From Halisarca cf. caerulea (Eukaryota > Porifera > Demospongiae > Chondrillida > Halisarcidae): a stretch of DNA of 64,000 nucleotides. The notes beneath the pieces were generated by a model that was given only the letters and a program-made list of their open reading frames with translations, had not been told where the DNA came from and did not search any database. The stretch covers positions 1,490,301 to 1,554,300 of the forward strand of contig CAUJGJ010000040.1 of assembly GCA_963170055.1 (NCBI GenBank), read 5' to 3'. How positions within the stretch are numbered: position 1 is the first letter of the stretch; each line of letters begins with the position of its first letter. Positions 25,385-61,387 of this stretch are shown here, piece after piece. The position numbers and the translations under genes were made by a program.

Positions 25385-26251
25385 CGCAGGTATGACATGT
25401 CCACTTTGAGGAAGTTGAGGGGCGTTTTGTGGTTTATGAGGAATTTGATACAATACTAACACCTAATACAGGGAGTGTGCGTGCTAGTCAGGTGTTCCTT
25501 TGTGACTACGGAGATATTCTAAGAGGACTAGTGGAGAATAGGCTGATTGGAGAGCTTCACGATCGTTAGAAACAGCTAGAAGCTACGAAAGAAGAATGAA
25601 ACAGTTTCAAACGCGATCTACTGCACTCGGCCGAAATCCTCGTCGAGGCTCCATTTACGGTGACATCATAATTGTCTCGTGACAACCTTGTGATCATGGT
25701 CGAGGAGATGGGCTTCATCAAGGGCTGAATTTCTTTCGAAAAGGCGGTCATGTAAACGGCATTTTAGCGGAGCCATATATCGAAATAGAGATCACCAGTG
25801 ACAAAGGTAACTTTTCACCGTTGGATACTTTTGATCAAATGCTCCATTCCCAACATGTCCACGGGTTTGTGGCTTTACTTTGTGCCGAAAACAACATTTT
25901 GATGGACATCTTGCAAACAAAGAGGTTTATCAAAAGTATCCAACGGTGAAAATTTAGATATTTATGTTAGAAGTCTACTGACTCAGTATGGCTCCTTTCT
26001 AGGATCGTTTACAGGACCGCCTTTTCAACTGAAATATTTTTTATAGGTTCGAATTAAATATTATTTTCCTAACTATGCGAATACTTCAGAACACAAATAT
26101 ATGAGAAATGTAGCATTTAATAGTTGTAATTGTAACCCTAGTCTCAAAAAATTTAACCTTATAGAACGAAAGAAAAACGGGGGGTGATTTCAGCCGACTT
26201 TAGGGCGGCCATTCTGTTCACACCTTACATGTGGGACATGTCACACCTGCG
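25385..26251 (-). mobile_element. CGCAGGT-family element, 867 bp, TA duplication
   Basis: The termini are CGCAGGTATGACATGTCC and ACATGTCACACCTGCG, flanked by TA at 25383-25384 and 26252-26253. Its body runs opposite to 26957-27820: GGGGCGTTTTGTGGTTT is near the left end and GGCGGCCATTCTG near the right. Internal self-complementary blocks (CTAACTTTTCACCGTTGGATACTTTTG-like near 25807 and its inverse near 25930) suggest a foldback body. No transposase. Confidence 0.85.
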
Positions 26252-32139: not shown

Positions 32140-33693
32140 TATATGCAATAGGACATAGGCAAATTATGATGGCTGCTGGAAGAAAAGGAGAGTTTTAAAA
32201 TATATAACAGTTTATCTCTGCAACAACGGTATCAGGTTTACGAAGGGGTTTTATCCTTAAGCTTTGTAGTTTTGCCTTCGCTGCATTTTTGAAGATAATT
32301 CACTACTTTTTAGCAGAGTTTCAGCCAGGGTTTTATTCAAGAAGCCAGCATGTATAACATATTCACAAGTAATTTGGGACAAGGGGCGGCAACCCCACAG
32401 GTTTCTTACCCAGGTTATTTGTTGAAAGTAAGTAGTTATTGTTTAGCAGTGGCTGAGATAATTTTATCTTATGATTTCTGACACTGCAGAAGGAAGTACA
32501 TTATGGGGCTGGGTGAGGAGATGGCAGGGACACAAGGAAACGGAGATACGTACGTGAATTTAGGACTGGTGCCTAAAAGGGAGATCTTTGAATGGTATAA
32601 TAATATACAAAGGTATAGTGGAATTTTCATGAGAAGATTTGGGCAATGATGTCTGTTTATGTTTTGTATGTACCACAGCAGGTATGTCTGTTCAGGCTTT
32701 AGAAGAAAAGAGTAAATCAAATTAAAGCAGCTCAAAATGTGACCAATATATACATACATACATATGTCATGTACTACAAATTGTCTTGTTAATCTGGTGA
32801 GTTTCACATACATATTATAATGTAATAGTATATTTTTCTAATTGGTTATTTTAGCAATATGTGGGTTTGTAAACTGTGTGTACAACAATTTAGAAACTAC
32901 TGAAAAACAGTATTTTACAAATACTTTACAGAGGTGTACAAATGTGTAAATTTGGTCTTTTTTGCTGTGTATGCTACAAGATGGCTGTACATAAAGTAGC
33001 ATTTGGATTCAATTTGAGATAACATGCACAATGGCTTACAGCGGGTGCACCTCACAATGAAAGTGGACATCCACAACATCAAGCACCGATTTGTTGAGTG
33101 AAAATTTGGGTACAGCTGCATCCTATTATTTTTGTTGCTCCATATATGGCGCAAAGGATAAGTATGCAAAATTGGTGAAACCGTAGCCCAAATCTTTTCT
33201 CTGTTAGGTCTGTGGGCAGAGACCGTGGAAGAGGAGATGTTCCATATTCTTCTAGGCTTAGGCCTTACTTGTTACCAGGGAATTTTCTAACTGGGTCTAC
33301 CGGCGGCTATCCCACAATAACAGCTACCCAGTGGTGGGGGAGAATGAAAGCAGGGTGGTACTGCCTTACTACCATGCTTTAGCTAAAACCCTGCAAAGTA
33401 CAAACACACACATACACACACATACACGTACACATACACAAAGTGCAAACACATCACACGCACAAACACACACACACACAAGTCATTTGTTACTACTGTA
33501 CTGGTGAAAGTTCCTAGCCGGGGCGCATGCGAACGTGATGCGAGTACTCACGAGATATTCGTGCGAGTATAGTTTTGCATGCATGTATTATGTGATTATT
33601 GTAAGACATTCAGCACTACCGCCATATACGTATGTATAATTCAGGATCACACCAAAGAGATTGAAGTGAAATTTCGAAATCAAGTTCATAGAG
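32140..33693. other. Intergenic; dispersed repeat shared with 47880-48960
   Basis: 32960-33150 resembles 48780-48960 (GGACATCCACAACATCAAGCA). 33140-33480 resembles 47880-48250 (GTTCCATATTCTTCTAGGCT, GAGAATGAAAGCAGGGTGGT), both ending in a CA-rich microsatellite (33398-33482 here). No gene is supported. Confidence 0.45.
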
Positions 33694-33802
33694 ATGGCTG
33701 TTTCGCCCTATTTCCGAGAAAGAATCGTACATCTAAAAAGTGAAGGCAAAAACATTTCTGGTATTACTGACACCATTCGTTCTGAAGGCAGACCAACCAC
33801 CC
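33694..33802 (+). pseudogene. Tc1/mariner-type transposase N-terminus, first piece
   Basis: From ATG 33694 the frame reads MAVSPYFRERIVHLKSEGKN, then ISGITDTIRSEGRPTT, where it meets the CGCAGGT element. Joined to 47328 (one CC removed) it continues in frame as RTTRTVCKWIHCWEE. This has the spacing of the first helix-turn-helix of Tc1-type transposases (PYxRxRIxxL, G, then a TVxxWxxxWE recognition helix). Family assignment is from memory of the motif. The rest of the transposase is absent. Confidence 0.6.
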
Positions 33803-34204
33803 CGCAGGTGTGACATGTCCCACATGTGGGATCTCAATAAAATGGCCGCCCGAAAGTCGGCTGTAATCACCCCCCCAATTTTCTTCCGTTTAATGTGTTT
33901 ATGGAGTATAACAAGCACATTAACCAATAATGCAACTATTGAACGATACAACAGTTCCCTTAACTTTGTTGTAACAGCTTCGCAAAGCCGGAAAAACGAC
34001 CATAGATTCGGACCTTAAAAAAAGGTTTAGTGAAAAACCCGGTCATGTAAACCATCGTTTAGAGCAGCCATACTTTGGTTATTTCTTCGTGTAAGACTCA
34101 CGAAATGCATGTTACATGTTCATGTATGCAAGTTACATGTTCATGGTTCATGTGTGCAAGTTATATCTTCCCATAATGAATACCACATGTAACATGTTCA
34201 TGTG

Positions 34205-35890
34205 CAGTAGTTGTAGTAGTTGTATTAGTTGTAGTAGTTGCAGTAGTTGCAGTGGTTGCAGTAGTTGCAGTGGTTGCAGTGGTTGCAGTAGTTGTAGTAG
34301 TTGCAGTGGTCGCAGTAGTTGCAGTAGTTGCAGTAGTTGCAGTGGTCGCAGTGGTCGCAGTAGTTGCAGTAGTTGCAGTAGTTGCAGTGGTTGTAGTAGT
34401 TGTAGTAGTTGCAGTAGTTGCAGTAGTTGCAGTAGTTGTAGTAGTTGCAGTAGTTGCAGTGGTTGCAGTAGTTGTAGTGGTTGCAGTAGTTGTAGTAGTT
34501 GCAGTAGTTGCAGTAGTTGTAGTAGTTGCAGTAGTTGCAGTGGTTGCAGTAGTTGCAGTGGTTGCAGTAGTTACAGTGGTTGCAGTAGTTGTAGTGGTTG
34601 CAGTAGTTGTAGTAGTTGCAGTAGTTGCAGTGGTTGCAGTAGTTGCAGTAGTTGCAGTGGTTGCAGTAGTTGTAGTAGTTGCAGTGGTTGCAGTAGTTGC
34701 AGTGGTTGCAGTAGTTGCAGTGGTTGCAGTGGTTGCAGTGGTTGCAGTGGTTGTAGTAGTTGTAGTAGTTGCAGTGGTTGCAGTAGTTGTAGTAGTTGTA
34801 GTAGTTGTAGTAGTTGCAGTAGTTGCAGTAGTTGCAGTAGTTGCAGTAGTTGCAGTAGTTGCAGTAGTTGTAGTAGTTGCAGTAGTTGCAGTGGTTGCAG
34901 TAGTTGTAGTGGTTGCAGTAGTTGTAGTAGTTGCAGTAGTTGCAGTAGTTGTAGTGGTTGCAGTAGTTGCAGTGGTTGCAGTAGTTGCAGTGGTTGCAGT
35001 AGTTGCAGTGGTCGCAGTGGTTGCAGTAGTTGCAGTGGTCGCAATAGTTGCAGTGGTTGCAGTAGTTGCAGTAGTTGCAGTGGTTGCAGTAGTTGTAGTA
35101 GTTGCAGTAGTTGTAGTAGTTGCAGTGGTTGCAGTAGTTGTAGTAGTTGCAGTGGTTGCAGTAGTTGTAGTAGTTGTAGTAGTTGCAGTGGTTGCAGTGG
35201 TTGCAGTGGTTGCAGTAGTTGCAGTAGTTGTAGTAGTTGCAGTAGTTGCAGTGGTTGCAGTAGTTGCAGTGGTTGCAGTAGTTGCAGTAGTTGTAGTAGT
35301 TGCAGTGGTTGCAGTGGTTGCAGTGGTTGCAGTGGTTGCAGTGGTTACAGTGGTTGCAGTAGTTGTAGTAGTTGTAGTAGTTGCAGTGGTTGCAGTAGTT
35401 GCAGTAGTTGTAGTAGTTGCAGTAGTTGCAGTGGTTGCAGTAGTTGCAGTGGTTGCAGTAGTTGTAGTAGTTGCAGTGGTTGCAGTGGTTGCAGTGGTTG
35501 CAGTAGTTGCAGTGGTTGCAGTGGTTGCAGTAGTTGTAGTAGTTGCAGTGGTTGCAGTGGTTGCAGTAGTTGCAGTGGTTGCAGTAGTTGTAGTAGTTGT
35601 AGTAGTTGCAGTAGTTGCAGTGGTTGCAGTGGTTGCAGTGGTTGCAGTGGTTGTAGTAGTTGTAGTAGTTGCAGTGGTTGTAGTAGTTGTAGTAGTTGTA
35701 GTAGTTGCAGTGGTTGCAGTAGTTGCAGTAGTTGTAGTAGTTTCAGTAGTTGCAGTGGTTGCAGTAGTTGCAGTGGTTGCAGTAGTTGCAGTGGTTGCAG
35801 TAGTTGCAGTGGTTGCAGTAGTTGCAGTGGTTGCAGTGGTTGCAGTAGTTACAGTGGTTGCAGTGGTTGCAGTGGTTGCAGTGGTTGTAA
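34205..35890. repeat. 9 bp tandem array, about 187 units
   Basis: The unit is GTTGCAGTA with C/T at position 5 and A/G at position 9, degenerating after 35890. Nine bases leave all three forward frames open and periodic (SCS-GCS, AVV, LQ patterns on the two strands), so the 500-600-residue frames here are artefacts of the repeat. Confidence 0.95.
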
Positions 35891-36188
35891 TATTTGCCTT
35901 GGTTGTACTGGTTGCAGTACCTGCAATATACTGTTACCTCCCAGTTGCCGTAGTTACAGTGGCAATGGTAGAGCAACATGTAGTACCATACGTTAGGAAA
36001 TTTTCGTGGTACAAAAATTTCGCGGCTCACCTCATTTTTGGGGTCATGAATTTTGTAGATAAATAAATTCACGGGCTCTGCCTACGGATAATGCAACAGA
36101 AGGTCTTTTCTTGTTTTCTAAGCGTTTGCCTCTCCTAATGAACGAAATTGTGTCTTTCTTCGTTTATCCTATAGGTGTAGTTAGTACT

Positions 36189-36440
36189 TCAATCTGTTAA
36201 GAGTGAACTAGTAAGATCTAGTAGGTGGAATGTAGTCCGCTTAGTGGTTATTCGTTGACGTTGTGGAAGCTTGAAGACTATTGGTGAAGATACATACGGT
36301 GTTACGTTCCTAAAGCTTAAAAGTGAACCCAAGGGAAGGTCAACGAATAATCTAAGCAATGTACATTGTATGCGATCGATTTTTGCATTCAAACAATTTC
36401 TATAAGCAAAAGCGGTACATGATCCCGTCAGCAGCCATTT
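36189..36440 (-). CDS. Conserved frame in left arm, unknown function
   Basis: An ~85-residue frame (KWLLTGSCTAFAYRNCLNAK ... LLDLTSSLLTD) that is also present in the right arm at 44775-45033 with only two or three substitutions. Conservation may reflect recent duplication or arm homogenisation. No ATG is shared with confidence and no domain is recognised. If expressed it would be an arm-encoded accessory product; otherwise it is a chance frame. Confidence 0.2.
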   Translation of the reverse strand, partial: KWLLTGSCTAFAYRNCLNAKIDRIQCTLLRLFVDLPLGSLLSFRNVTPYVSSPIVFKLPQRQRITTKRTTFHLLDLTSSLLTD

Positions 36441-37010
36441 TATCATTAATGTTTGCGGATGAATAATTTTGCGGATCCTTTCGAACCACGAAAACCACGA
36501 AATTTATTAGCCGTGAAATTTTCCTGACATACGGTATTTACTTTTACAATGCATTGCAGTGTGAATTGATAGTAGTTTACAGTCCTTCCTCGTGTCGGGT
36601 CAGTACCCCCTCTTTCAAGTTACTAACACTCAAGGAAATTTATGTGAAGAATCACGTGCACGTGACCACACGGTGCACAACACAAATGTAAATTTGAGGA
36701 CCACCTGCTTACAGAGGACACTATTACTTGGCCCTTAAGTGGTCTGTATAATTTTACAGGTATGCTTCGCTTTGTTTGCAAAGTTTTTGGACCTCATATA
36801 AAATGCTTATCGCACATTGATCGAGGGGAGTGTCGTTATAAAGTATTTGAAATTGAATGTCAAATACGTACAGCTTAACCTGTAAACGACTTTATCCTTA
36901 CAGTATGTATACACATACATTTCTGCTGTTATTGCATAATTCAGCATTGATAATGCCATGCCGTAACAAGAAGAGTATTACATGGTGTATTCCTTGCTCC
37001 ATTGTCCACA

Positions 37011-37624
37011 CAAACCCTATCTACCAAATGTGCATAATTATACATAATCAAGTAATAATAAGTATGTCACATGAACTAATTGCAATTATGCTACTTTTGA
37101 CATCTACGTCGAGGTAAAAATCCATCATGTAGATCATCAACCAGGAAATCTGCTCTTGCTCGTCAACAGCATCATCTGTAGTTGTGGCAACAGTACACTG
37201 TGTACTTGATGTAGGATGAGTGGTGAGTGGTAATTGCAGCATGGCAGTAGGCAGAGAAGCAGTGGTGATGATATCTGAAGTGGTAGCTGTGGTGATGGCC
37301 ATGGTGAGCAGTGTGCACGTGTTTGGTGGATATTCTTCAATGAGATGTTGCGTGGTGTTTGGTGGATTGCTTGAGGTAACGTGTGACATTGTGATGTGTA
37401 TTTGAGTGGACCAGGTGTATAGAGGCTCATGAGGACTGAAAGTGGTGGAAGTGGTGGTGTGTGAGTAGTTCAGGGTGATGTTAGGTGGAATGTGTCAAGG
37501 ATTTAATGGGATCGTTCATCCTCCATCGCCTACTTTCAATACTGGTGAAAGTACAGGACATCACGATGGAAGTTTTATACCGCCAATATCTTGTGGAACC
37601 CATATGTAATTTACCCACAAATTA
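37011..37624. other. Interior of the foldback transposon before the transposase
   Basis: GT-rich sequence with open frames on both strands (reverse frame at 37048-37389, Thr/Pro-rich). No recognisable domain; it probably contains the promoter or leader of the transposase gene. Confidence 0.35.
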
Positions 37625-39489
37625 ATGCCAGTTGAATCTGTCGATTGTCCTCAGAGTGGAAGGCCCAAACATGAAGGATACTGGAATGACAGCTCTTCAT
37701 CCACAAAGCAGCCCAGGATTTTAAATGGAATTGATAATATTGTGTTACTGGTCAGTTCTGTATACGTTTGTGATGGTAGACATAAAGTCATAGCACACGA
37801 TGAGATAGTTTTAGCCAATTTTCCCCTACGGGAGATGATTCCTTTCACTCTCCTCCACAAAACTGGATTTACTCGAGAACTTTTAGATATGTGCTCAGTA
37901 TCTTGCAGAAGAGGAATAAACTTCTACAGTCTGGAATTGCTTATTCTTGAATGGCGTTGGGAAACCTTTGCAAGGCAGCAAGATCTTGCAAAACAGTTTG
38001 GGAAATCTTCTTCAGATGACTTTTCGAGTTCAACATTATCTAATTAAATCCCCTAGCAATGATGTACTATCAAGATGCCTCCTGACTGACTTCCTTCAAC
38101 ATGAACATTTGTATTTAATGGAAATGGCACATATGCCACCTAGCAATAACATAAGCTTCGATCACACTTTTAAGGTTGCCACTAACATTGGGTACTTCAG
38201 AGAGGATCGTAAGTGGGTACATGTGTATGACAGCTTGTTCCTGGTAATGAGTGATACAGGACAGGTACTCACATGGCAATTAGCTAAAGGAACATCATTT
38301 GGGGAGGTCAAAAGTTTACTGGAGGATTTACGTACGTAATAGCACAGAGAAGCCAATTCAAACTGTTTATGTTGATGACTGTTGCAAACTCAGAAATAAG
38401 ATTAAAAGTGTATTTGGAGACAATGTGGATGTAAAACTGGATCTATTTCATGTAGTACAGAGAATCACGAAGACATTTTCACGTAAGCATCCCCCCTGGC
38501 CAATGTGTGTACAGGTGATTTTCAGGAACAGTGATTGTCAGCAACTCCTTCAGACACGATTGCAGCAAACTTGGCCTTATTCCTTGAGAAATGGCAGGTG
38601 ATTAGCGACAGTTACGAATTGTAGTTATTTACACCAGCGACACATGTCACAATTAAAAATTTACAACATCACATAGTGAGAGGTTGTCTGTCAAACATAC
38701 CACCTGGAATGGAAACCAACAGGAATGAAAGGTTTCATCAACATATGAAATCGTTCTTCAGTAGGAGTAGAATCGGTCTCTTACTTGCCTATGCACTCCT
38801 AAGTGTGATTATTATGCACACATGCAATACCTCCCAGCTTGTAGCTGGAAAGCAGATGATACGACCTATTACTGCTAGTCTCATGAGGGGAATGGAAGCT
38901 ACTAATCTGCCAACTGTGGGTCTCATCCGGAAAGACCGCGAAAGACAGATAAATCCACTTGACAAAACGTCGATATCTGATCCAGCTCATTGGGAAATAG
39001 ACAGGTCTTTGAGGACATTGGATTATGATGTACTTTTGCCCATCTACTCAACTTCCCTGGACAAATTAAAAATAAATAGACTTTTACAAAAGGGTGGATT
39101 GTCTCGTCTAACCAGTGTTAATTGTAAGCCACCTCCAGCAACTTTCCACTTCCCTTACCAGTTCCAAACCTGTTGGATCAGATATCAAATGTAAATTAAG
39201 TGAATATGCATGGCCTGATATCTATTGCAACCAAGCCAGATGGAAACTGCTTTTCCAAGCAGTTGCTATGAATATAAAAGCAGACAGACTCATGGTCACC
39301 CTGTCTCACTGGGGTGGGAATTTCAGCAAAAGGTGTCAAGGATGTTGAATCCTTGGCTACAAAACTCTGTACGGTATTTGTTGAGGAGCTTCTAGGAGAA
39401 CATCGGGATTCATATGTCATTGAGCAGTTCTTTACTGGAGAGGGATCAGAAGGTGATTATTCTACAGAAGCTAGGAGGTTTCTTTAACC

Positions 39490-42400
39490 CTCTGACCCGC
39501 GCCCTATACAAATAGGGAACTACAGTTCCACAACTTCCAGATTTTATTCCTACGATAGCGGCATAGCTAACGATAAATCATTTACACAAGCTGATAATAC
39601 ATTAGTAACACTTATCTTTGATATAGTACAAAATAGTAGCAAAACGGCTGAGGAAACCGCTTTTGAAAAACGCTCCCGATTCACCGAGTGAAGAACCATT
39701 ATTTCCGCATAATTTCGTAAAATTACGGATATGGCTTCCAAAGAAGATACTCGCCAACGGTTCTATCCAACGGAAGAGGTTCTCGCTTACTTCTGTACGG
39801 ACAGTAAAAGCAGCGCAACATCTACCGAAGGGTCAGAGGATGAATTGCAGTTGGGTGGTATCGAATCAGATGAAAACTCGATCGCTAAAAGAGCAAAATT
39901 CGGAATTTTGGCGACGGTGCAGAACGTTCAGCTGCAGGAAGAGCAAACAAGCAGTAACTGTGCAGTTGGCACAAGGTCAGGAGACAGAAGTAGCAGCGAT
40001 TATTCAGCGGGAAGTGAACACGAGTCAATTGAAGAAGAAGGTGAAACAAGTAGTGGGGAAAGCAACATAGTAAGAAGTGATGAGACTGAAAATGAATGGG
40101 ATGATGATAATGAAGGGGGGGATTTTGCTGATTCAGAAGTGGATAACCATGTAATACAAGAGGGTAATGGAGGTGATGAAGGGGAAAGTCTGGTGCATGG
40201 TGGTGAGAATGTTTTGGAGGACGACATTGCACGAGGCTTGATGGATGGTGGCACTGGAAATGAGGGTGACAATGAGCAAGGCTTGATGGATGATGATGGA
40301 GGACATGAGGGAGACGATGAGCAATGCTTGACGGGTGATGATAGGGGACATGAGAGTGACAATGAGCAAGGCTTGATGGATGATGACGGAGGACATGAGG
40401 GTGACAATGAGCAAGGCTTGATGGGTGATGACGGAGGACATGAGGGTGACAATGAGCAAGGCTTGATGGGTGATGATGGAGGAAATGAGGGTGACAATGA
40501 GCAAGGCTTGATTGGTGATGGTAATGATGATGATATTAGCCACAATGACAAGTCTTCTGATAACAGCAGTACATGTAGCGAAGGTGGTTCCAGAGGCGGA
40601 CGTGGCAGCAACCGTGGCAGAAGTCGTGGCAGAGGTGGTCGTAGCACAAGTCGTGGTGTAGGTAGTGGCAGAGGTGGTCAGGGAAGAGGTAGTGGCAGAG
40701 GTGGTCGGGGTAGAGGTCGTGGCAGAGGTGGTCGGGGTAGAGGTCGTGGCAGAGGTGGTCTGGGTAGAGGCCGTGGCGCAGGTAGGGGCAGAAGTCTAGG
40801 CAATAGTGAACTGAGTAATAGTCAGAGCATTGAGGGGGTTCCAGCACGTTCGGCACCTATATCCCAGGTGGACTCCGACTACATAGCAGCAGACATATTC
40901 CAACCTCTCAGAGTTCCCGGTCCACATCTTCCCGAGGGTGCTGATGATCAGGTATCAGGGCTGGATCTGGTCCAGCTCTTTATTGATGATTCTGTCCTTG
41001 AGCGATTGGTCAAATCCATGAATGACTATGCTGACAAGAACCGTACCAAGAAGCCGAATATGTATAAAAGATTCAAACGACATCCCATCACACCTGATGA
41101 AATGATGCGCTACCTTGGTTGCCTTGTACTGCTTAGCATCAACTCCGTACGCAACTATCGTTTAGCTTGGAGCAAGAAGAGTAGCCAGCACTTGCCACAA
41201 CTCCTCCGCATGCTCTCTCGTGATCGTTTTGAGGCGATAGGTGCTTTCCTCCATGTTGTAACTGAAGAAGAAGAGACTGAGTTGTCGTCCCACAAGCTGA
41301 GGAAGATTCTTCCACTACACAATGCCATCAAGAAGAAGTGTCTCGACCTGTATCAACCACTCCAACAGCTTTCAGTTGACGAACGTATGGTGAGGAGCAA
41401 GGCAAGGACACAGTTTCGCCAGTACATACGGAACAAGCCAACTAAGTGGGGGTATAAGTACTGGATTTTAGCTGACCCCACTGGCTATACAGTAGACTTC
41501 GATATCTACTGTGGCACCAACGATGCTCCATCAGGGAAGGGACTTGGCTATGATGTTGTAGCCAAACTGACTGCTCCGTTTCACTTTCAGGGATACGAAG
41601 TTTACTGCGACAATTTTTATTCTAGCTCTTCCCTGTTTTCCGACCTCCTTGAGAATGGAATTACCGCAACAGGCACTGTGAAGACAAATCGGATGGGAGT
41701 TCCTTCAGAAGTGAAATTGTTGAAGGAGGCTTTGGAGAAGACACATGTACCACGGGGTACGGGATACTACATTAGGCCCAGGGGTTCCAGGACTGTGTAC
41801 ATTGTGTGGAAGGATAGTAAGTGTGTCACAGTGATGTCAACGGGATACCCAGGACACAGCAGCAGTACGGTGAAGCGGAGAGTGAAAGTGTCCACTGGCG
41901 TGTCACACACACAAGATGTATCAATCCCCATCGCAGTACAGATGTACAACTCATATATGGGAGGAGTTGACAAGTCGGACCAGTACATCAGCTATAACCG
42001 GGTCTTGAGGAAGACGGTGAGATACTGGAAGACGTTCTTCTTCCATTTGCTGGAGATTGTAGCTACGAATTCCTGTATTCTGTATAATTGGAAGAGAATG
42101 GAGTCGGGGTTGAAGAGAGTGTCACAGACTACATTCCTGGATGGTCTTGTGCAAGAAATCGTGAACAAGTTTGGCAGGACCATACTGGAGGCAGAGGACT
42201 TCACTATCATGCATGGAAGTAGATTTAGGCTTGATGGGAAGAAGAATCAGTGTGCTTACTGCCACACCAACAAAAGTCAACGCTTTTGCCCGAACTGTCC
42301 GTTCGAACCTTCCTTGTGTCAGGTTCCCGGGCGAGATTGCCATTCTCTCTGGCATGAGGCAATCAGTTCAAGCGCAAGGAAGCAGTGGTTCAGGAAACGG

Positions 42401-43010
42401 GCAAGACAACAAAGCACCAATGAGTTAACGGCAGCAAGCAAGCGAGGGAGACCTTTAGGGAGGAAGAGTCTAAAGAAGAGAAGAGAACAAAACTTGAAGC
42501 ACTGACATGACACCATGAAACCATAGACACTAAACAAATAAACCGTACGCTGATCTTATTACAATCATGTGCTTACCAATGTTATGGCACTAATGTTCTA
42601 GAACCAAAAGTGTACGTTTCTCCCGTGTGCGCATGGAAGAGGAATGTAAATATACTCACCTCGGAAAACGTCAAATATCTGTGGAGAGGAACTTCGTAAC
42701 GCCAAAAGCTTGACAACAAACGATAGCTGGTATGATAAGCTATTCAATGATATGACGATTGGTCCAATCCTTCTTCTGAAACGGCAGCAATAAATTCTCA
42801 AACTCCTTCGAAGCGCGCGCGAGTTGATATATTCTACGTATATGATTAGGGATTCAGCCTGTTCTGTTGTATTTAGTACCTGTTTATAGCTCTATCAATC
42901 CTCTATAAAATGGTACCCACTACGTATTGATACGCCTAACGAATACCCTGTAAGCGCCTTAGAAAGCACATCTGGTGAAAAATTCTTTTCCGCACGCGCG
43001 GGTCAGAGGG
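39490..43010 (+). mobile_element. Complete piggyBac element, 3521 bp
   Basis: Perfect 15 bp inverted termini CCCTCTGACCCGCGC / GCGCGGGTCAGAGGG are flanked by TTAA at 39486-39489 and 43011-43014. It contains one long intact transposase gene, about 240 bp of 5' sequence, and AATAAA at 42537-42542. It lies inside the transposase pseudogene of the foldback element. Intact frame and termini indicate recent, possibly current, mobility. Confidence 0.95.
39731..42505 (+). CDS. piggyBac transposase, intact
   Basis: A 924-residue DDE transposase that excises and inserts DNA at TTAA sites. Residues 1-170 are acidic and Ser-rich. About 170-270 holds acidic repeats of the type GHEGDNEQGLMDDDG, and about 285-355 an RG-rich tract (GRGGRGRGRGRGG). 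The catalytic core follows: SVDERMV with Asp550, YCDNFYSS with Asp627, and GGVDKSDQ with Asp747 and Asp750. Spacing agrees with D268/D346/D447/D450 of the founding moth enzyme. The C-terminal cysteine-rich domain CAYCHTNKSQRFCPNC ... CQVPGRDCHSLWHE is complete and would bind the terminal repeats. The N-terminal extension is long for the family (typically about 600 residues). No stop or shift is seen. Start chosen as the first ATG, after which composition is continuous. Confidence 0.93.
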   Translation: MASKEDTRQRFYPTEEVLAYFCTDSKSSATSTEGSEDELQLGGIESDENSIAKRAKFGILATVQNVQLQEEQTSSNCAVGTRSGDRSSSDYSAGSEHESIEEEGETSSGESNIVRSDETENEWDDDNEGGDFADSEVDNHVIQEGNGGDEGESLVHGGENVLEDDIARGLMDGGTGNEGDNEQGLMDDDGGHEGDDEQCLTGDDRGHESDNEQGLMDDDGGHEGDNEQGLMGDDGGHEGDNEQGLMGDDGGNEGDNEQGLIGDGNDDDISHNDKSSDNSSTCSEGGSRGGRGSNRGRSRGRGGRSTSRGVGSGRGGQGRGSGRGGRGRGRGRGGRGRGRGRGGLGRGRGAGRGRSLGNSELSNSQSIEGVPARSAPISQVDSDYIAADIFQPLRVPGPHLPEGADDQVSGLDLVQLFIDDSVLERLVKSMNDYADKNRTKKPNMYKRFKRHPITPDEMMRYLGCLVLLSINSVRNYRLAWSKKSSQHLPQLLRMLSRDRFEAIGAFLHVVTEEEETELSSHKLRKILPLHNAIKKKCLDLYQPLQQLSVDERMVRSKARTQFRQYIRNKPTKWGYKYWILADPTGYTVDFDIYCGTNDAPSGKGLGYDVVAKLTAPFHFQGYEVYCDNFYSSSSLFSDLLENGITATGTVKTNRMGVPSEVKLLKEALEKTHVPRGTGYYIRPRGSRTVYIVWKDSKCVTVMSTGYPGHSSSTVKRRVKVSTGVSHTQDVSIPIAVQMYNSYMGGVDKSDQYISYNRVLRKTVRYWKTFFFHLLEIVATNSCILYNWKRMESGLKRVSQTTFLDGLVQEIVNKFGRTILEAEDFTIMHGSRFRLDGKKNQCAYCHTNKSQRFCPNCPFEPSLCQVPGRDCHSLWHEAISSSARKQWFRKRARQQSTNELTAASKRGRPLGRKSLKKRREQNLKH

Positions 43011-43587
43011 TTAAAGTGGTTTTTTGAGAGTGCAATTTGAGACTTAATGCCTATATGGCTATGGCAACTGTGTTGCAGACATCCGTCATCATTTTTACTA
43101 CAAACCCACGTATGTGATGCCCATAGCTGGAAATCCACTCTGAAATGCATTTTTGATTTATAATTCTAGTGGGCCAGGTCATTATGAAGCAGCTGTATTG
43201 TACTCATCTACTATTGGATTACCAGCTTTTCAAACTGAATCAGAGCCTGTTTCTACCTAAACTACTTCCTGCAGATGTGGAGTCAACAAAGCTTTCACTG
43301 GGATGCCGTGTACACCAGGCCTCACTTATAGTACGAGATGTAAATGCTATAACAATTCCAAAGGATGCTCATCTACCTGTCAGTGCAAAGGTTGCAAGAA
43401 CCCCTTTGGCACAAATCCATCTAAAGTCCGTAGAGGGAGGAAACGGCATCATCTGCAAAAGGTACTTCCTTCCAGTAAGCGCTTTGCTGCCAGCAGAGGT
43501 GTAATCCTGCGCAACGATGTATGGTCAGAATTTGAAACCATTAATTGTTTTGAAGGAAATAAGTGGATTGAGACTGCATCATATTGA

Positions 43588-44231
43588 TAAGATTATGGAA
43601 ATGTTAAATGACATCGTATACTATTCAACATCTCTTTCTGTACAGTCCCTCTGGCGGCAGACATTGTCTTCAGAGAAGACAATGGCTCAAATTTAGACGA
43701 AGATTTTACATGAAGTCATACGCACAGTGCAGATAACTGGGAAATTTTTATGAATTACCACACTATGTGTACCTCGTTTCTTGTTAAACTATACTTTACA
43801 GTAGCTCGTTGTAGACCTCAAATCAATTATCATAGAACTTGATCATAGAACTAGCTTGTATGTAACAAGATCATGCACAATCATTCTGCTGTATGCATGT
43901 CAATATCATTTCAAACTATGTCATGCATCGTTTCAGCTTACCTGCAATCCAATTGACAAATTTCGAACACCTACAATATGTCCAATTTGGTCATTTATAA
44001 CGATTCTCACTCTAATATATTATGCAAACTTATACCCTATATGTTGGGTGTAGGGTAGGCTAGTTAGGGGAACATGTGTGTAAATTAGATTAGGATAAGT
44101 TTACCATATGAACATGTGTGTAACCCTACCACTAACCCTAACCCTAGCATAGCTTATGATTCTACAATGTCATGGTGGATTTTTGCCTACACATGAATGC
44201 GTAGAAGTCAGAAGTACTACAGTAGGTTATA
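43588..44231. other. Interior of the foldback transposon after the transposase
   Basis: 43640-43710 retains a short frame that may be the last transposase residues (PLAADIVFREDNGSNLDEDF). A TAACCC-like tract is at 44122-44155. Nothing else is recognisable. Confidence 0.4.
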
Positions 44232-44774
44232 TTGTGCACTAGAGCAAAGGAATACACCATGTAATACTCTTCTTGTTACGGCATGGTATTATCAATGCTG
44301 AATTATGCAATAACAGCAGAAATGTATGTGTATACATACTGTAAGGATAAAGTCGTTTACAGGTTAAGCTGTATTTGACATACAATTTCAAATACTTTAT
44401 AATGACACACTCCCCTCGATCAATGTGCGATAAGCATTTTATATGAGGTCCAAAAACTTTGCAAACAAAGCGAAGCATACCTGTAAAATTATACAGACCA
44501 CTTAAGGGCCAAGTAATAGTGTCCTCTGTAAGCAGGTGGTCCTCAAATTTACATTTGTGTTGTGCACCGTGTGGTCACGTGCACGTGATTCTTCACATAA
44601 ATTTCCTTGAGTGTTAGCAACTTGAAAGAGGGGGTACTGACCCGACACGAGGAAGGACTGTTAACTACTATAAATTCACACTGCAATGCATTGTAAAAGT
44701 ACATACTGTATGTCAGGAAATTTCGTGATTTTTGTGGTTCTAAAGGATCCGCAAAATTATTCATCCGCAAACAT

Positions 44775-45033
44775 TAATGATAAATGGCTGCTGACGGGAT
44801 TGTGTACCGCTTTTGCTTATAGAAATTGTTTGAATGCAAAAATCGATCGCATACAATGTACATTGCTTAGATTATTCGTTGACCTTCCCTTGGGTTCACT
44901 TTTAAGCTTTAGGAACGTAACACCGTATGTATCTTCACCAATAGTCTTCAAGCTTCCACAACGTCAACGAATAACCACTAAGCGGACTGCATTCCACCTA
45001 CTAGATCTTACTAGTTCACTCTTAACAGATTGA
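44775..45033 (+). CDS. Conserved frame in right arm, unknown function
   Basis: The counterpart of 36189-36440, sharing LRLFVDLPLGSLLSFRNVTP and the C-terminus LLDLTSSLLTD. An upstream in-frame ATG at 44686 would lengthen it. Function unknown; it may be only arm sequence. Confidence 0.2.
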
Positions 45034-45324
45034 AATGCTAACTACACCTATAGGATAAACGAAGAAAGACACAATTTCGTTCATTGGGAGAGGCAAACGC
45101 TTAGAAAACAAGAGAAGACCTTCTGTTGCATTATCTGTAGGCAGAGCCCGTGAATTTATTTACAAAAATTTATGACCCCAAAAATGAGGCGAGCCGCGAA
45201 ATTTTTGTACCACGAAAATTACGTACAGTACTACATGTTGCTCTACCATTGCCACTGTAACTATGGCAACTGGGAGGTAACAGTATATTGCAGGTACTGC
45301 AACCAGTACAACCAAGGCAAATAT

Positions 45325-46597
45325 TACAACCACTGCAACCACTGCAACCACTGCAACTACTGCAACCACTGCAACTACTACAACTACTACAACTACTGCA
45401 ACCACTGCAACTACTGCAACTACTGCGACCACTGCAACTACTACAACTACTGCAACCACTGCAACTACTGCAACCACTGCAACTACTACAACTACTGCAA
45501 CCACTGCAACTACTGCAACCACTGCAACTACTGCAACTACTGCAACCACTGCAACTATTGCGACCACTGCAACTACTGCAACCACTGCAACCACTGCAAC
45601 TACTACAACTACTGCGACCACTGCAACTACTGCAACTACTGCAACCACTACAACTACTGCAACCACTACAACTACTGCAACCACTGCAACTACTGCAACT
45701 ACTGCGACCACTGCAACTACTGCGACCACTGCAACTACTGCAACTACTGCAACTACTGCAACCACTGCAACTACTGCGACCACTGCAACTACTGCAACTA
45801 CTGCAACCACTGCAACCACTGCAACTACTGCAACCACTACAACTACTACAACTACTGCAACTACTACAACTACTGCAACCACTGCAACTACTGCAACTAC
45901 TGCAACCACTGCAACTATTGCGACCACTGCAACTACTGCAACCACTGCGACCACTGCAACTACTGCAACTACTGCGACCACTGCAACTACTGCAACTACT
46001 GCAACCACTGCAACTACTGCAACCACTACAACTACTGCAACCACTGCAACTACTGCAACTACTGCAACCACTGCAACTACTGCAACCACTGCAACCACTG
46101 CAACTACTGCGACCACTGCAACTACTGCAACTACTGCAACCACTGCAACCACTGCAACTACTGCGACCACTGCAACTAATGCAACTACTGCAACCACTGC
46201 AACTACTACAACTACTACAACTACTGCAACTACTGCAACTACTACAACTACTGCAACCACTGCAACCACTGCAACCACTGCAACTACTGCGACCACTGCA
46301 ACTACTGCAACTACTGCAACCACTGCAACCACTGCAACTACTGCGACCACTGCAACTAATGCAACTACTGCAACCACTGCAACTACTACAACTACTACAA
46401 CTACTGCAACTACTGCAACTACTACAACTACTGCAACCACTGCAACTACTACAACTACTGCAACCACTGCAACCACTGCAACCACTGCAACTACTGCAAC
46501 TACTGCAACCACTGTGACCACTGCAACCACTGCAACTACTACAACTACTGCAACTACGGCAACTACTGCAACTACTACAACTACTACAACTACTGCA
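45325..46597. repeat. 9 bp tandem array, about 141 units, inverted orientation
   Basis: The complement of the left-arm array (unit TACTGCAAC with A/G and C/T variants). A block of about 120 bp appears twice, at about 46080-46200 and 46260-46380, showing higher-order duplication inside the array. Confidence 0.95.
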
Positions 46598-47327
46598 CAT
46601 GAACATGTTACATGTGGTATTCATTATGTGAAGATATAACTTGCACACATGAACCATGAACATGTAACTTGCATACATGAACATGTAACATGCATTTCGT
46701 GAGTCTTACACGAAGAAATAACCCATACTTTGTTAAGAACCTTCCAACAACAATATCTAAATTTTCACCGTGGTAGAACTTACCATTCCTCTTCGTTCCT
46801 GAGATGTCCAACGAAATGTTGTTTTTCATACAAAGTAAAACCACAAACTTGGGGACATGTCGGGAATGGAGCATGCTATCGAAATCTACCACGGTGAAAA
46901 CTTAGCTTTACCTATGGTGATCTAACTCCCGCGACATGGCTCCTCTACACAAACGTTTAGATGACCGGGTTTTGGAAAAAATCTCAGTCACTAAAGAAGT
47001 CTCTTTCTCGCCGTTTGTCACAAGGCTGTCACGCGATATGATGACGTCACCCACCAAAGGTAACGATCGGTGAAATCGATACTCCTTCCAACATGAACGA
47101 ATATTCTTAAGAACGTTCTAAAAACGCTCAATGCGCATACGAAGACGATATTCGATACAATTCTCTTCTGTTTGAGAACAAAAAGGCCTATTGTTCGGGC
47201 GACTTTGTATTCTTACACGTGACTAAGGCGTGCACATTAGGAAAACGTGTTAGTATTAAATCAAATTCCTTTGCAAACCACACAACGCCCCTCGATTTTT
47301 CTGAAAGGTACATGTTATACCTGCGCC

Positions 47328-47430
47328 GGACAACACGTACAGTTTGTAAGTGGATACATTGTTGGGAAGAGTTTCGTTGTCTTCGGGACTGGCATCACCC
47401 TAACCCTAACCCTAACCCCATTCTTTCGGG
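47328..47430 (+). pseudogene. Tc1/mariner-type transposase N-terminus, second piece
   Basis: It continues the 33694-33802 frame: RTTRTVCKWIHCWEEFRCLR, then DWHH. The frame runs into (CCCTAA)n, giving PNPNPNP, after which similarity to a transposase is lost. Confidence 0.55.
47397..47425. repeat. Interstitial telomere-like tract
   Basis: About four CCCTAA units, the complement of the common animal telomere repeat TTAGGG. Shorter versions lie near 6205 and 44130. Confidence 0.7.
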
Positions 47431-49818
47431 GCATCCTAATCCTGCTGTCCTTCATGATGAGTCTTTCCTTCGAAAACTGCACAATTGAAGTTAGCAGGTT
47501 AGGATAGACACACGTGACGTTGCATGTGATGCGAACAACTTGCTGATTAGATACGAGTGTATATGAGTATATATTAGTATATACGTGTGATGTTGCGTGG
47601 GATGCAAACGACTTGTTAATTAGATACGAGTGTATATGAGTATATACGAGTACTCGCAAGAAGTTCGAATACAACACACGAAAAGGCAGCTAGAAACTTT
47701 CACCCAGGACTTTAAGTGTGGTATATTACACATTCTCCAAAGTAAATTGTTATTAAATCTGGTACAGTACATCAGGAATCATTGAAAGCAATGTCTAAAA
47801 AAATATGACTAACAACTATGACTAACGTCGAGCACTAAATGACACGTTTTCTTGCACATGTGCAGACTCATCCTATATTTTGTTGCTCCATATTTGGCAC
47901 AAAGATTAAGTACAGGAAATTGTTGAATTGAATTCTCGAGACCATTGCCCGAACCATTTCTCTGTAAGGTCTGTCAGCAGAGGCCGTGGAAGAGGAAATG
48001 TTCCATATTCTTCTAGGCTTAGGGTTTACTTGTTACCAAAGAATTGTCTACCAGCGCATATTTCACAACAACAGCTGCCAAGTGGTGGGAGAGAATGAAA
48101 GCAGGGTGAGGGAGAATAAAAGCAAGAGGGGAAAATGAAAGCAGGGTGGTACCACCCTACTACCCTGCTTTAGCTATAACCCTGTAAAGTACAAACACAC
48201 ACACATGCATGTACACATACACAAAATACATGCACACAAACACACACACAAGTCATTTGTTAATAAGTGGGGTATATTACACAATCACCCAAGTAAATTG
48301 TTACTACACAGGGGCATTATAGTTGCACGAGGACACAAGAAACTAGAGAGATTTTTCTTCAGACATTACAGACATGCATGCATGCATGCAGCCTTTACTA
48401 ATGAAAGTAACTTGTAGTTGTAGTATTATATTACAATAGAGTATTTTGCTTACAATTACAAGAGTTACATAAATATGTTTTGCAAATCAACTTGCCTAAG
48501 TTTATTCATATTGGAGGCATTATATGCTATGAAATTTGGTCAAGTGTCATGACAGATAATTTACTGTTATAACTGAGGGCTGAAATAAATACCCTATGAA
48601 GGGGGGTTACTACTTATGCCAAACATTCTCCTTGACACGCAACACTAAGTACAGTGAAAACTCATTATAACAAATCACAGAAGCATAGGTATTTATACTA
48701 CATACGTAAGTATAGAGAATCTATGGTGTTAGTGCTAAGAAGGTCATGCTTGAATTTCTCCAACTAAAAAAGTGGCTTCTATGCTACAAAATGGCTGTAC
48801 AGAAAGTAGCATTTGCATGAAATTAGAGATGACATGCACATTGGTTTGCAGTGGAAGAACCTCACAGTTAAAATGGACATCCACAACATCAAGCACCAGT
48901 ACAATGTTCATGGAATAGTATAGCATCCAAATGATTTGTTGAGTGAAATTTGGGTACAGGAATTAAATGTGCTGGCTCGGAAAGAATCTCATTGTGACAG
49001 GCAAATAAAATGGATGACGTGGGTTGCAGGGACTTTGCACTGGATATACAGACAGATTTCCGATGTTAGCTCAAGATGATGAAACTGTTTGGAGATAATG
49101 TTAATTTTTCCGTAAGTACATTATGTAGTATAGAGTGTCAATGAATGAACCTGGCTACATTTAACTTCAAGCCCAGTTTCAACACCATCTTATGCACTCA
49201 GATTCATCACAAATTTCATGCAGAGACAATAGCGGTTTTCCAAGCCATTCAAGCTCTATAGCTGGTTGCAATCACCATGCTTGCATACACATATACAAAG
49301 CATATACAAAACTATGTGGAAATAAGCATAGAATAAAATGGCCACTAAAGAATGCAGGAGAATTGAGGACGCACAAATTACTCTTTGTGCAAACAATTTT
49401 GCTTTAAAGGTCTAAAGGAAGTTTTGAAATTGTATGAAAATGCTCTTGCCACAACAGCAGAAGGCCCAACAGTACCATATCTTGTAGCACGGCTAGAGCC
49501 AATATTTATTTTTTTGGGTAATAATGGATATGTGAAAAGTGTCATGTAGTTATTAAAATGTTAAGGGTATAAATGGTCATACTTCACTGACATAGCATGT
49601 TTCAGGAATGGTATAATACCTGTAGGTATAATACTACTACTACTTATCAGCAAACTCCTGTGATGAATATGTATGAGTTGGTCACATTGTCACTTTATGA
49701 ATATAATTAACTTGATGGTCATGTGACAGCACTGTGACAGAGAAAGGGAGTTGAAGGAATACTGGCAAAGTAAGCTTCTTGACAATGCCTCCTGTTTTGT
49801 GACTTGTCCAGAGGTAGG
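47431..49818. other. Intergenic repeat mosaic upstream of the eight-helix gene
   Basis: About 47520-47660 has tandem variants of GATACGAGTGTATATGAGTA. 47880-48251 and 48750-48965 are copies of repeats at 32940-33480. A CA microsatellite is at about 48195-48251. Frames at 47219-47488 and 49192-49407 have no recognisable product beyond the Tc1 fragment. Confidence 0.45.
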
Positions 49819-55192: not shown

Positions 55193-55925
55193 TGGATGGT
55201 AATGGATGGTGTAGTTCTTTTGCAAGTCCTAAAAATGCAAGAAGCTGCGGAAATTTTGATCTCGTCATATTACATTTTCAATGTTAAGTATCCAAAAACT
55301 CAAGCCTGTACTGACCATTTTAGAGAAACTAGTCACGAAGGAACACATGCATGCATGACTAGGGCACACACTCCCTGTTTTAGGTGTTAGTATTGTATCA
55401 GATTCCTTGTAAACTACAAAACGCCCTTCAATTTCTACGAAGTACACATGTTGTACATATATAAATAGGAAACAGGGCAGCTTAAGTTGAGAATAGTTTA
55501 TACATGTATGGAACTAAACTAATTATTATCATGTTGTGAAAGTAGGAAAATTGCCATTGTCTCACATAATTCAATTTTACAGTTTCATATAACTTACTCA
55601 TTTAGTTACCCTGTCCAGGGTATCAACAACATGCAGATGTAAACACAAATGTGCATTATAAGTAGTCTAGAAGAAAGTTGTTAAAATCACACACTAATGC
55701 TGTGTTTGTTTAGCTTGGATCACATGAAAGGATAGGCCAGTGATGTAACATCAAGAGACATTGATATTATTTATATTTTTAGTAAACACTGATAAATAGA
55801 AATGAGAAATCAATTTAACATTATTGAATATCAGAGAAAATTTAAGTTCTCAAATATCAAACAAATACAGGCTAATTGAAAAAGAAATGAAAAGAGAAGA
55901 ATTTGGCATTTTCATCATCTGCTAT
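55193..55925. other. Intergenic; CGCAGGT-family remnant
   Basis: About 55310-55440 matches, inverted, the interior left part of 25385-26251 (ACTAGGGCACACACTCCCTG, AACTACAAAACGCCC) without a proper terminus. The rest is AT-rich and featureless. Confidence 0.45.
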
Positions 55926-57040: not shown

Positions 57041-57114
57041 CTGTTCCTAGTTAGAATAAAGTATTTTTTTGAGGGAAGGGTAGTCAGAAATACAACAGAA
57101 GAGATAATTTCAAG

Positions 57115-58092
57115 ATGCTCAACAACAGTACTGAGGACCCCACAAAGCATCCTCAACTCTTTGGCTACTACAGCTTGTTTATAACACTGTTCTTCCTTGT
57201 GCCTGCCTTTGTTTTCAACATCCTTCTCTTGGTGTCCATTGTGATGGAGAAAACAATCCCAGCTGCTATCAGGTTCATTTTGGCCAACATAGTGACTGCA
57301 TCTGAGATAGTTATCATTGGCATTGCCATCATTTTGCTTCAGAATGTCATCCTTTCCGGACTCACACATTTGGAATCTTCAATTGTTGTTTGTCAGGTTA
57401 CATACGTCTCTCTTGCGTCAGGTGCGGCAGCAAGACTTTTTTTCATGGCCAATTTTGCTGTGTCTGTGTATGTGCTGGTGAGGCGAGGTGCTTCTAGACT
57501 AAAATTAGTCCCTTCACTTGTGGCTGGAGTGTTACTGTGGCTGTTTGCCATTGCTCCAAATACAGTGTTATTTTCTTCAGATTTCCTTGAGATAACTTTT
57601 CACGACGGTTCTGCTTGTGCTCCACACGGACGGAATGTCACCACGCCCATTTATACATTCAGCTACATAGCCATATATGGTTGCTGCAGTTTCATAGTAG
57701 GAATCGTATTTCCCATACTGACCATATGCTACATCAAGAAAAACACAATATCAGACAACTCACAGATGCTTAGAGGCATGGTGAAATTTGCCATTTTCCT
57801 ACTCATTGGTAACAGCATGAATTTCATGGGTATTTCCATTCCCATACTGTTTGCAACATTTGCGCCAAGTGGAGAAGAGTATTATATTTTAGAGAAGGCA
57901 TTCAACTATGCAGAGGGCATTTTACTCATGCTGTCACTCATTCCCACTCCGGTAATTCTCCTAGTATTCTTCAAACCAATTCGACATCGTTTACTTGAAA
58001 TGGTATGCTTTATCTGCGTGAATTCAAAAGCCAGAAAGGACAAAACAGTTCCAACCTCCCACACACCGGGAACTGCACAGGATACTGTTTAA
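57115..58092 (+). CDS. Rhodopsin-like orphan GPCR, intronless
   Basis: A 325-residue seven-helix receptor for the plasma membrane; ligand unknown. ATG 57115 is followed by NST (glycosylation at Asn4). Helices lie near 20-43, 51-75, 92-121, 131-155, 178-206, 220-250 and 262-285. Cys93 and Cys168 would form the conserved disulfide. A Trp in helix 4 (LLWLF, residue 142) is present. There is no DRY after helix 3 (it reads LVRRGAS) and NPxxY is replaced by LIPTPVILLVF, followed by FKPIRHRL as helix 8. It is about 50-55% identical by eye to the receptor at 60416, same strand, 2.3 kb downstream, so a tandem pair. The frame is intact. Confidence 0.87.
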   Translation: MLNNSTEDPTKHPQLFGYYSLFITLFFLVPAFVFNILLLVSIVMEKTIPAAIRFILANIVTASEIVIIGIAIILLQNVILSGLTHLESSIVVCQVTYVSLASGAAARLFFMANFAVSVYVLVRRGASRLKLVPSLVAGVLLWLFAIAPNTVLFSSDFLEITFHDGSACAPHGRNVTTPIYTFSYIAIYGCCSFIVGIVFPILTICYIKKNTISDNSQMLRGMVKFAIFLLIGNSMNFMGISIPILFATFAPSGEEYYILEKAFNYAEGILLMLSLIPTPVILLVFFKPIRHRLLEMVCFICVNSKARKDKTVPTSHTPGTAQDTV

Positions 58093-59876: not shown

Positions 59877-60415
59877 TACGTACAACAGAAGAGAGCTTTG
59901 TAGTTTTGGCTGAAGCAATAATTAATTTTGGCTTTGTTTTACTGAGTGCTGCTCATAAGGTATGGTTCATGTACTACAGATCATGTGTTACTCTGGAGAC
60001 TATATATATATTACATTGGTAGTACATCATACATACCATCATGCACAAATATGTACTCCAGCCTTTCATAATCCAGACCCATTGCTAGTCAGTAGAAATG
60101 TGTACCCAATATGCACACTGCCTTGTAAAAAGATTTGTTAATCCAGCATAATTTAGTGTAATGAAAATGTAGCAATGTGATAGTCCAGACGGACAACATG
60201 CAAAGGTAGTGTGCCTCCGTGTACTAGGTACTTGCCCTTAGGCAGACGTACTATGAGGGTTCAAAGGTAACCACAATTGAATTTTATTGTTCTTGTTTGC
60301 ATACAGCAACCCACAGTGTATACGAAGCTGCATAGCTGAACAGTAATCTTTCAGTACTGAAGAGTTTATGGATCTTTTCTAAAGAGAGTACTACAATTAC
60401 AAAGGCTGAAGGAGA
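59877..60415. other. Upstream region of the second tandem receptor
   Basis: AT-rich with no recognisable core promoter; no gene seen. Confidence 0.4.
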
Positions 60416-61387
60416 ATGTGGGTTAATGACAGCATAAATGGAACGAGACCCTCTCCACCCTTTGGCTACTTCAGCCTATTTATCACTCTGTTATTCCTTA
60501 CTCCCGTTTTCTGTTTCAACATACTCCTCTTGGTGGCAACTGTTATAGAAAAGACAATCCCTCCAACGATCAGATTGATTCTTACCAACATCATAGCAGC
60601 ATCTGAGGTGGTCATTGTAGGGCTGGCTGGCATTCTATTGCAAGCAGTGATTCTGTCGGGACTTCATCACCTTTCTCCCTCCGACTTTGCATGCCGACTC
60701 ATGTACGTCATTCTCATTTCAGGTGGGGCAGCCCGCTTAGTTCTGAAGGCAATGTTTGCTGTCACTGCTTACATCCTAGTTCGTTTCGGTCCTGCTAAGC
60801 TTTACTTCATTCCTGCCTGTGCAGCAAGTGTGGCAGTATGGATATTTGTGTTTTGTCCCAATTGCGTTCTGTTCTCACACATATTCATGAGAATCACATT
60901 CCTGGATGGTGATGATTGTGCGGCACATGGTCAGGGAACAACTACAATACTATATACATTTGCTTACATTCTAGTATATGCAGCCTTCAGCTTTGTAATA
61001 AGCATTGTTTTCCCCATCATCACTGTTGTCTATATAAGGAACCATACAATTTCGGACAATTCCCACATGCTGCACGGAATGATCAAATTTGCTTTTCTTC
61101 TCCTCCTGGGCAACATTATGAATGCGATTGGCATCTCCATTCCAATCCTATTTGCAACATTTGCACCTAGTGGACAGATGTACTACGTATTAGTGAAGGC
61201 ATTCAATTACACAGAAGGGGTATTCATCTTGTTGTCACTGATACCAACTCCTATCATTCTGCTTGCGTTCTTCAAGCCAATTCGTCTCCGATTATTATAC
61301 CTCGTCTGCATTTGCCATTCAACGGGTGAGGAAAAAAGCTTACCAAAGGCATCAAGTACAGCTGGTACAATTGAAGGAACTCTATAA
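60416..61387 (+). CDS. Rhodopsin-like orphan GPCR, intronless
   Basis: A 323-residue seven-helix receptor from ATG 60416 (AGAATGTGG). The N-terminus carries NDS and NGT glycosylation sites. It shares with its upstream neighbour FGYFSLFITL at helix 1, EKTIPPTIRLILTNI into helix 2, FACRLMY at helix 3, DDCAAHG in loop 2, HTISDNSHMLHGMIKF into helix 6 and LIPTPIILLAFFKPIR at helix 7/8. DRY and NPxxY are missing, as in the other two receptors. Loop 3 is very short, with the conserved TISDNS motif. The third receptor (1381-2379) is more distant. The frame is intact; ligand and coupling unknown. Confidence 0.87.
   Translation: MWVNDSINGTRPSPPFGYFSLFITLLFLTPVFCFNILLLVATVIEKTIPPTIRLILTNIIAASEVVIVGLAGILLQAVILSGLHHLSPSDFACRLMYVILISGGAARLVLKAMFAVTAYILVRFGPAKLYFIPACAASVAVWIFVFCPNCVLFSHIFMRITFLDGDDCAAHGQGTTTILYTFAYILVYAAFSFVISIVFPIITVVYIRNHTISDNSHMLHGMIKFAFLLLLGNIMNAIGISIPILFATFAPSGQMYYVLVKAFNYTEGVFILLSLIPTPIILLAFFKPIRLRLLYLVCICHSTGEEKSLPKASSTAGTIEGTL

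Follow-up and report, generated by a model that had tools for sequence, protein, structure and literature searches.

The window analysed here, 64,000 nucleotides of the genome of the sponge Halisarca cf. caerulea (C40:1490301-1554300, where C40 is contig CAUJGJ010000040.1), contains four DNA transposons lying one inside another. We conclude with near certainty that the locus records four successive insertions, each into the preceding element: a Tc1 copy is interrupted by a short element with CGCAGGT ends, this element by a long foldback transposon, and the foldback transposon by a piggyBac element. Nesting as such is an ordinary kind of arrangement. The four layers had been proposed in an initial annotation made from the letters of the window, and all junctions were borne out when their letters were checked, at the positions given there except for the ends of the foldback element. 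Sister copies of each element were collected from the 194 Mb of the genome (454 contigs).

Order of the four insertions

The three outer layers each have sister copies that are uninterrupted at the site occupied by the next layer: five of five for Tc1, 13 of 13 examined for the CGCAGGT element and one clean copy for the foldback element. Because of these uninterrupted sisters, the strict order Tc1, CGCAGGT element, foldback, piggyBac can be assigned. This order holds for the four copies but does not extend to the activity of the whole families, to which it had originally been applied.

The Tc1 frame, which starts at 33694 in the window, is interrupted at 33802/47328, between two copies of CC, and picks up in phase, as predicted: it reads MAVSPYFRERIV...EGRPTT before the insertion and TTRTVCKWIHCWEEFRCLRDWH after it, and is two residues longer there than in the sisters. 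All five Tc1 sister loci found read through the insertion position, three of them (on C44, C369 and C172) with an uninterrupted 338-aa frame; Pfam DDE_3 matches the C44 copy over a piece of 315 aa (8.6e-19). A duplicated TA, together with a helix-turn-helix and DDE transposase in the sister copies, places the outermost layer in Tc1/mariner. Beyond the resumed frame most of the gene is lost from the window copy. The range first given for the nest, 33694-47430, contains all layers, but the Tc1 remnant reaches farther, from 33496 to 47712, with TA at both sides. Telomere-like CCCTAA repeats, some three and a half of them, stand at the point of its internal deletion, and doubled CCCTAA is absent from the five Tc1 sister stretches compared. 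A short run of CCCTAA-like repeats is also found inside the foldback element, at 44132-44147.

The two pieces of the CGCAGGT element add up to 868 bp between duplicated CC, again in agreement with the annotation. Sisters broken at the foldback junction, which would have spoken against the nest, did not turn up: the 13 sisters examined, taken from 40 matches scored, are all contiguous there, 11 without a gap and two with one unaligned base. A matching 2-bp duplication (TA, CA, TC, GT, GC or TG) flanks 11 of the 13, in some cases next to an altered last element base; the sisters without one are L019 and the degenerate L022. Genome-wide, CGCAGGT ends with at most one mismatch number 436; the control pattern, in reversed order, gave 90. 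One of the longer end pairs was read in search of a transposase partner, and none turned up there: this 2.8-kb copy (L081, C40:1232060-1234920) was rejected as coding partner, being the same element with an insert in which the longest open frame has 115 aa. The statement that four superfamilies are represented is unproven because of the CGCAGGT element, with its variable 2-bp duplications and no autonomous partner in the one longer copy read. A second, more diverged CGCAGGT element lies in the window at 25385-26251, with about 72-81% identity to the nested copy, and 55384-55434 holds a fragment.

The innermost layer has inverted ends, a TTAA duplication and a DDE_Tnp_1_7 transposase, as expected of piggyBac, and two complete sisters, likewise between TTAA sequences, are 99% identical. 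The unfilled piggyBac site, which the initial annotation had suggested searching for, is present as a single TTAA in the foldback copy on contig C415 (L009). The copy on contig C79 (L010), which retains both foldback ends, is missing about 50 bp around the target, and L011 is without the region.

Divergence of the window copies from their sister majorities falls from layer to layer: 31 of 352 positions for Tc1 (8.8%; four sisters), 17 of 855 for the CGCAGGT element (2.0%; 12 sisters), 47 of 5533 for the foldback element (0.85%; two sisters) and 12 of 3523 for piggyBac (0.34%; two sisters), with L057, L022, L011 and L039, respectively, left out of the counts. Neighbouring layers differ from each other (Fisher p = 2.6e-7 for Tc1/CGCAGGT, 0.005 for CGCAGGT/foldback and 0.003 for foldback/piggyBac). 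This monotonic inward fall agrees with the nesting order and supports it independently. Since the CGCAGGT sisters themselves span 0.8-3.5% divergence, the values rank the layers, and any date read from them belongs to family bursts no less than to single insertions.

Several points weigh against this reconstruction. A clean empty piggyBac site occurs in only one foldback sister, L009, whose own left arm is truncated by a contig end; the divergence counts draw on unequal numbers of sisters and time bursts of the families no less than insertions; and the contiguity of the nest is known from the assembly alone, in which the foldback arms may have been given 9-bp arrays of the wrong length. These arrays, 1.3-1.7 kb long, are hard to assemble, and one could imagine the nest to be an assembly chimera that joins unrelated repeats. 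We regard this as extremely improbable: every junction shows the target duplication typical of its family together with exact ends of the element, which is not expected of chimeric joins, and the inward decrease in divergence likewise argues against a chimera.

In this reconstruction the locus was built up as follows: a Tc1 copy inserted, duplicating TA, and then decayed; the 868-bp CGCAGGT element entered it with duplication of CC; the foldback element followed, duplicating the 8-bp CATACTTT; and an intact piggyBac finally entered the foldback transposase gene, which was probably broken already, with duplication of TTAA. No comparable nest was found among titles and abstract openings of open-licence papers.

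Ends, arms and gene of the foldback element

The initial annotation gave the foldback element a 10-bp duplication and a length of 12,645 bp. Each end proved to be off by one base, the sister copies yielding 8 bp and 12,647 bp. In the window alone, 10 bp with GTTATT...AATAAC and 8 bp with GGTTATT...AATAACC are equally good. The duplications of L010 (GTTATGTT) and L011 (AAAAATTC) are perfect at 8 bp, whereas 10 bp would take one and two mismatches; three miniature copies (L075, L076 and L077) have an 8-bp duplication with one mismatch each. The terminal 126 bp gave 47 listed matches, of which the window itself contributes two; 39 of the 47 start at 34077 and thus include the extra G, six start one base later and two further in. 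Because the sister copies favour the 8-bp duplication and the extra G, we place the element at 34077-46723. A duplication of 10 bp (CCATACTTTG) was dismissed as very improbable on these counts, even though 10 identical bases flank GTTATT...AATAAC in the window and L011 and L077 carry an A in place of the extra G at the left end. At L078, exactly 8 bp separate two adjoining foldback ends.

Long inverted arms made of tandem repeats put the element in the foldback structural class. All four annotated elements were confirmed, but a fifth had been overlooked, namely a TA-flanked miniature inverted-repeat transposable element (MITE) present in both foldback arms. It occurs as a solo copy with TA flanks and inverted ends at L008, and L009 and L010 each carry it in both arms. 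Among 41 listed matches, 33 cover the MITE stretch alone (84-93% identical). The arm stretches on the inner side of the arrays, with the MITE counted in, agree at 94.8% of 1082 aligned positions. As judged from these sequences, the MITE most likely entered before the foldback copies spread, an event followed by the copying of one arm onto the other.

The piggyBac insertion lies inside the foldback transposase gene with TTAA duplicated, as had been claimed, but the gene was probably broken beforehand. One frame break is common to all three copies compared, though introns in the gene are conceivable. Because L009 and L010 share this break yet have no piggyBac, we rejected piggyBac as its cause. 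The family protein combines a DDE core with an OTU protease domain and a CXC domain.

Table 1. Features of the nest, in order along the window (positions are those of the window)
Feature	Position	Strand	Basis
TA duplication of Tc1 remnant	33494-33495 (left), 47713-47714 (right)		comparison with sister ends; letters checked
Tc1 left part, helix-turn-helix start MAVSPYFRERIV...EGRPTT	33496-33802	+	frame and sister loci
CC duplication of CGCAGGT element	33801-33802 (left), 47326-47327 (right)		letters checked
CGCAGGT left piece, 274 bp, ends in one CATACTTT	33803-34076		sister contiguity
Foldback 8-bp duplication CATACTTT	34069-34076 (left), 46724-46731 (right)		sister copies
Foldback element, 12,647 bp including piggyBac, ends GGTTATTTCTTCGTG / CACGAAGAAATAACC	34077-46723	+	
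Left arm array, 9-bp unit TGCAGTAGT, about 191 copies	34203-35919	+	Tandem Repeats Finder
TA-flanked MITE, left foldback arm, ends CCATACG / CATACGG	35986-36534		solo copy L008; letters checked
Foldback transposase gene before piggyBac, several frames (DDE core, OTU start)	37499-39484	+	tblastn with P0007, P0020; motif positions
piggyBac, 3523 bp, ends CCCTCTGACCCGCGC / GCGCGGGTCAGAGGG, TTAA at 39484-39487 and 43011-43014	39488-43010	+	
Intact 924-aa piggyBac transposase frame, no internal stop	39731-42505	+	Pfam DDE_Tnp_1_7 5.8e-72
Foldback transposase gene after piggyBac (OTU end, CXC domain)	43084-43674	+	tblastn with P0007, P0020
TA-flanked MITE, right foldback arm	44706-45228		solo copy L008; letters checked
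Right arm array, inverted 9-bp unit TGCAGTAGT	45295-46597	-	
CGCAGGT right piece, 594 bp; both pieces 868 bp	46732-47325		sister comparison, letters checked
Tc1 right part, internally deleted, telomere-like CCCTAA filler 47398-47419	47328-47712	+	sister comparison

Relatives and class of the foldback family

The first structural match of the foldback transposase, in a comparison made without eukaryotic Mutator-like elements (MULEs; VIA-align over Foldseek's top 1000), is ISCth4, which we take to be an IS256-type transposase. ISCth4 is a bacterial insertion sequence, and the match spans model residues 8-431 only, leaving the OTU and CXC parts of the foldback protein outside. A weak NCBIfam IS256 match was obtained for one of five members (E 0.023, 13.7 bits vs a cut-off of 150). 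Pfam transposase matches are also weak. When 47 family members were scanned, 40 Pfam families were matched; the 25 of these that were listed include no MULE model, no PHD family and no KDZ transposase profile, and a single member gave a weak rve match (0.11). The homologs are unnamed, and the few with an organism label include sequences from the sponge Dysidea avara and the hydrozoan Clytia hemisphaerica.

Period-9 arrays lie beside the transposases of four of 11 relatives: the unit TAGTGTGTC (one orientation) near L066 (39% identical), L069 (36%) and L074 (33%), and the unit AGACACCAG in L079, beside L064 (41% identical transposase). The examined flanks of the other seven (L065, L067, L068 and L070-L073) showed no 9-bp arrays; such arrays may lie farther out, as in the window about 2.7 kb separate the end of the arm array from the start of the matched core. 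The inverted end of L079, GGTTGTTACTTCATATAAGACTCACGAAAT, is close to the window's GGTTATTTCTTCGTGTAAGACTCACGAAAT, scoring 48 vs a maximum of 33 in 100 shuffles. Short palindromes with GTCTCGTACCCAG-type ends, apparently more MITEs, were seen in L080 and in the first part of L066, next to a foldback relative.

The following comparisons with known systems draw on excerpts of the cited papers. MULE target duplications measure 8-11 bp (PMC6446971), a range that includes the 8 bp of the foldback element. Rehavkus, which is Mutator-related, resembles it in having a minisatellite in the element and a Mutator-related DDE transposase, but is described with a 9-bp duplication, a PHD finger and a minisatellite before the 3' end (PMC6446971), in contrast to 8 bp, OTU and CXC domains and arrays in both arms here. 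Tm1 and Phantom, Mutator-Foldback elements, share foldback ends with internal repeats, duplications of mostly 9 bp (8-10) and MITE-like derivatives (PMC3169594); they differ in an internal motif of about 14 bp and a FLYWCH-MULE transposase, where the present element has a 9-bp unit and an OTU-CXC protein for which Pfam listed no MULE match. Galileo and Tetris also have long inverted arms holding tandem repeats (PMC4079207), but the Galileo transposase is of P type with THAP, and the Tetris units are about 220 bp long. Some Ginger1 transposases carry a C-terminal OTU domain (PMC2836005); their DDE domain is of the Gypsy-integrase type and their duplications are CCGG-like and 4 bp long, unlike the 8-bp duplication and the single weak rve match found here.

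The foldback element looks like an undescribed branch of IS256/Mutator-like foldback transposons, apparently unnamed. Neither an OTU/CXC transposase nor a comparable foldback architecture was found in the titles and abstract openings surveyed, which did not cover Repbase. Target duplications of 8 bp occur in several transposon superfamilies, and the family could instead belong to another DDE group, such as hAT, P, Zisupton/KDZ or ISL3. The absence of a MULE model from the 25 families listed would fit such a placement, as would the weak Pfam ISL3 transposase match of three of the 47 members (best E 0.0017) and the P-type transposase of the foldback element Galileo (PMC3169594). With ISCth4 as first structural match and the weak IS256 profile match pointing the other way, we consider a position outside the IS256/Mutator side unlikely.

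The foldback copy in the window would have been mobilised in trans by the enzyme of a relative. This DDE transposase, IS256/Mutator-like in fold and equipped with OTU and CXC domains, probably attaches to the conserved foldback ends and to the 9-bp arm arrays. Galileo arms contain extra transposase binding sites (PMC4079207), and it is because of this parallel that we read the 9-bp arrays as putative binding sites, perhaps for the CXC domain. Tentatively, and with somewhat less than even confidence, we propose that the foldback element stands for a widespread and hitherto undescribed branch of the DNA transposons of animals whose transposase joins an IS256-fold DDE core to an OTU domain with conserved Cys and His and a CXC domain, and which would recognise GGTTRTT... 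ends and arms with binding sites every 9 bp, the period being kept and the unit changing by lineage.

A number of observations count against this proposal or are neutral to it. Pfam scores for OTU and CXC are modest: those of family member P0002 stay just under the cut-offs (OTU 22.2 vs 23.3, CXC 24.7 vs 26.7), and MSL2-CXC in the C415 copy is also below its own (E 9e-5, 23 bits, cut-off 26.7). The ISL3 match does not point to IS256. The end counterpart in L066 is borderline (36 vs a shuffle maximum of 36), and no window-like end was found in the examined parts of L065 (30 vs 40), L068 (30 vs 36) and L069 (24 vs 31). That the transposase binds the arms is proposed by analogy alone.

Other features of the window and implications

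Outside the nest, three similar membrane-protein-like open frames were noted at 1381-2388, 57073-58092 and 60410-61387, with no Pfam match at 0.1. Two arrays of related 30-bp repeats, at 10137-10809 and 11353-11887, are open in several frames.

Since all three outer layers have sisters with empty sites within this genome, the locus arranges four element families in a relative stratigraphy for which no calibration is needed. The foldback layer, for its part, draws attention to a family of transposases with a deubiquitinase-type domain, which sequence profiles leave unnamed. Two questions thereby become testable: do the arrays serve as binding sites of the transposase, and for what reason does a transposase carry an OTU protease?

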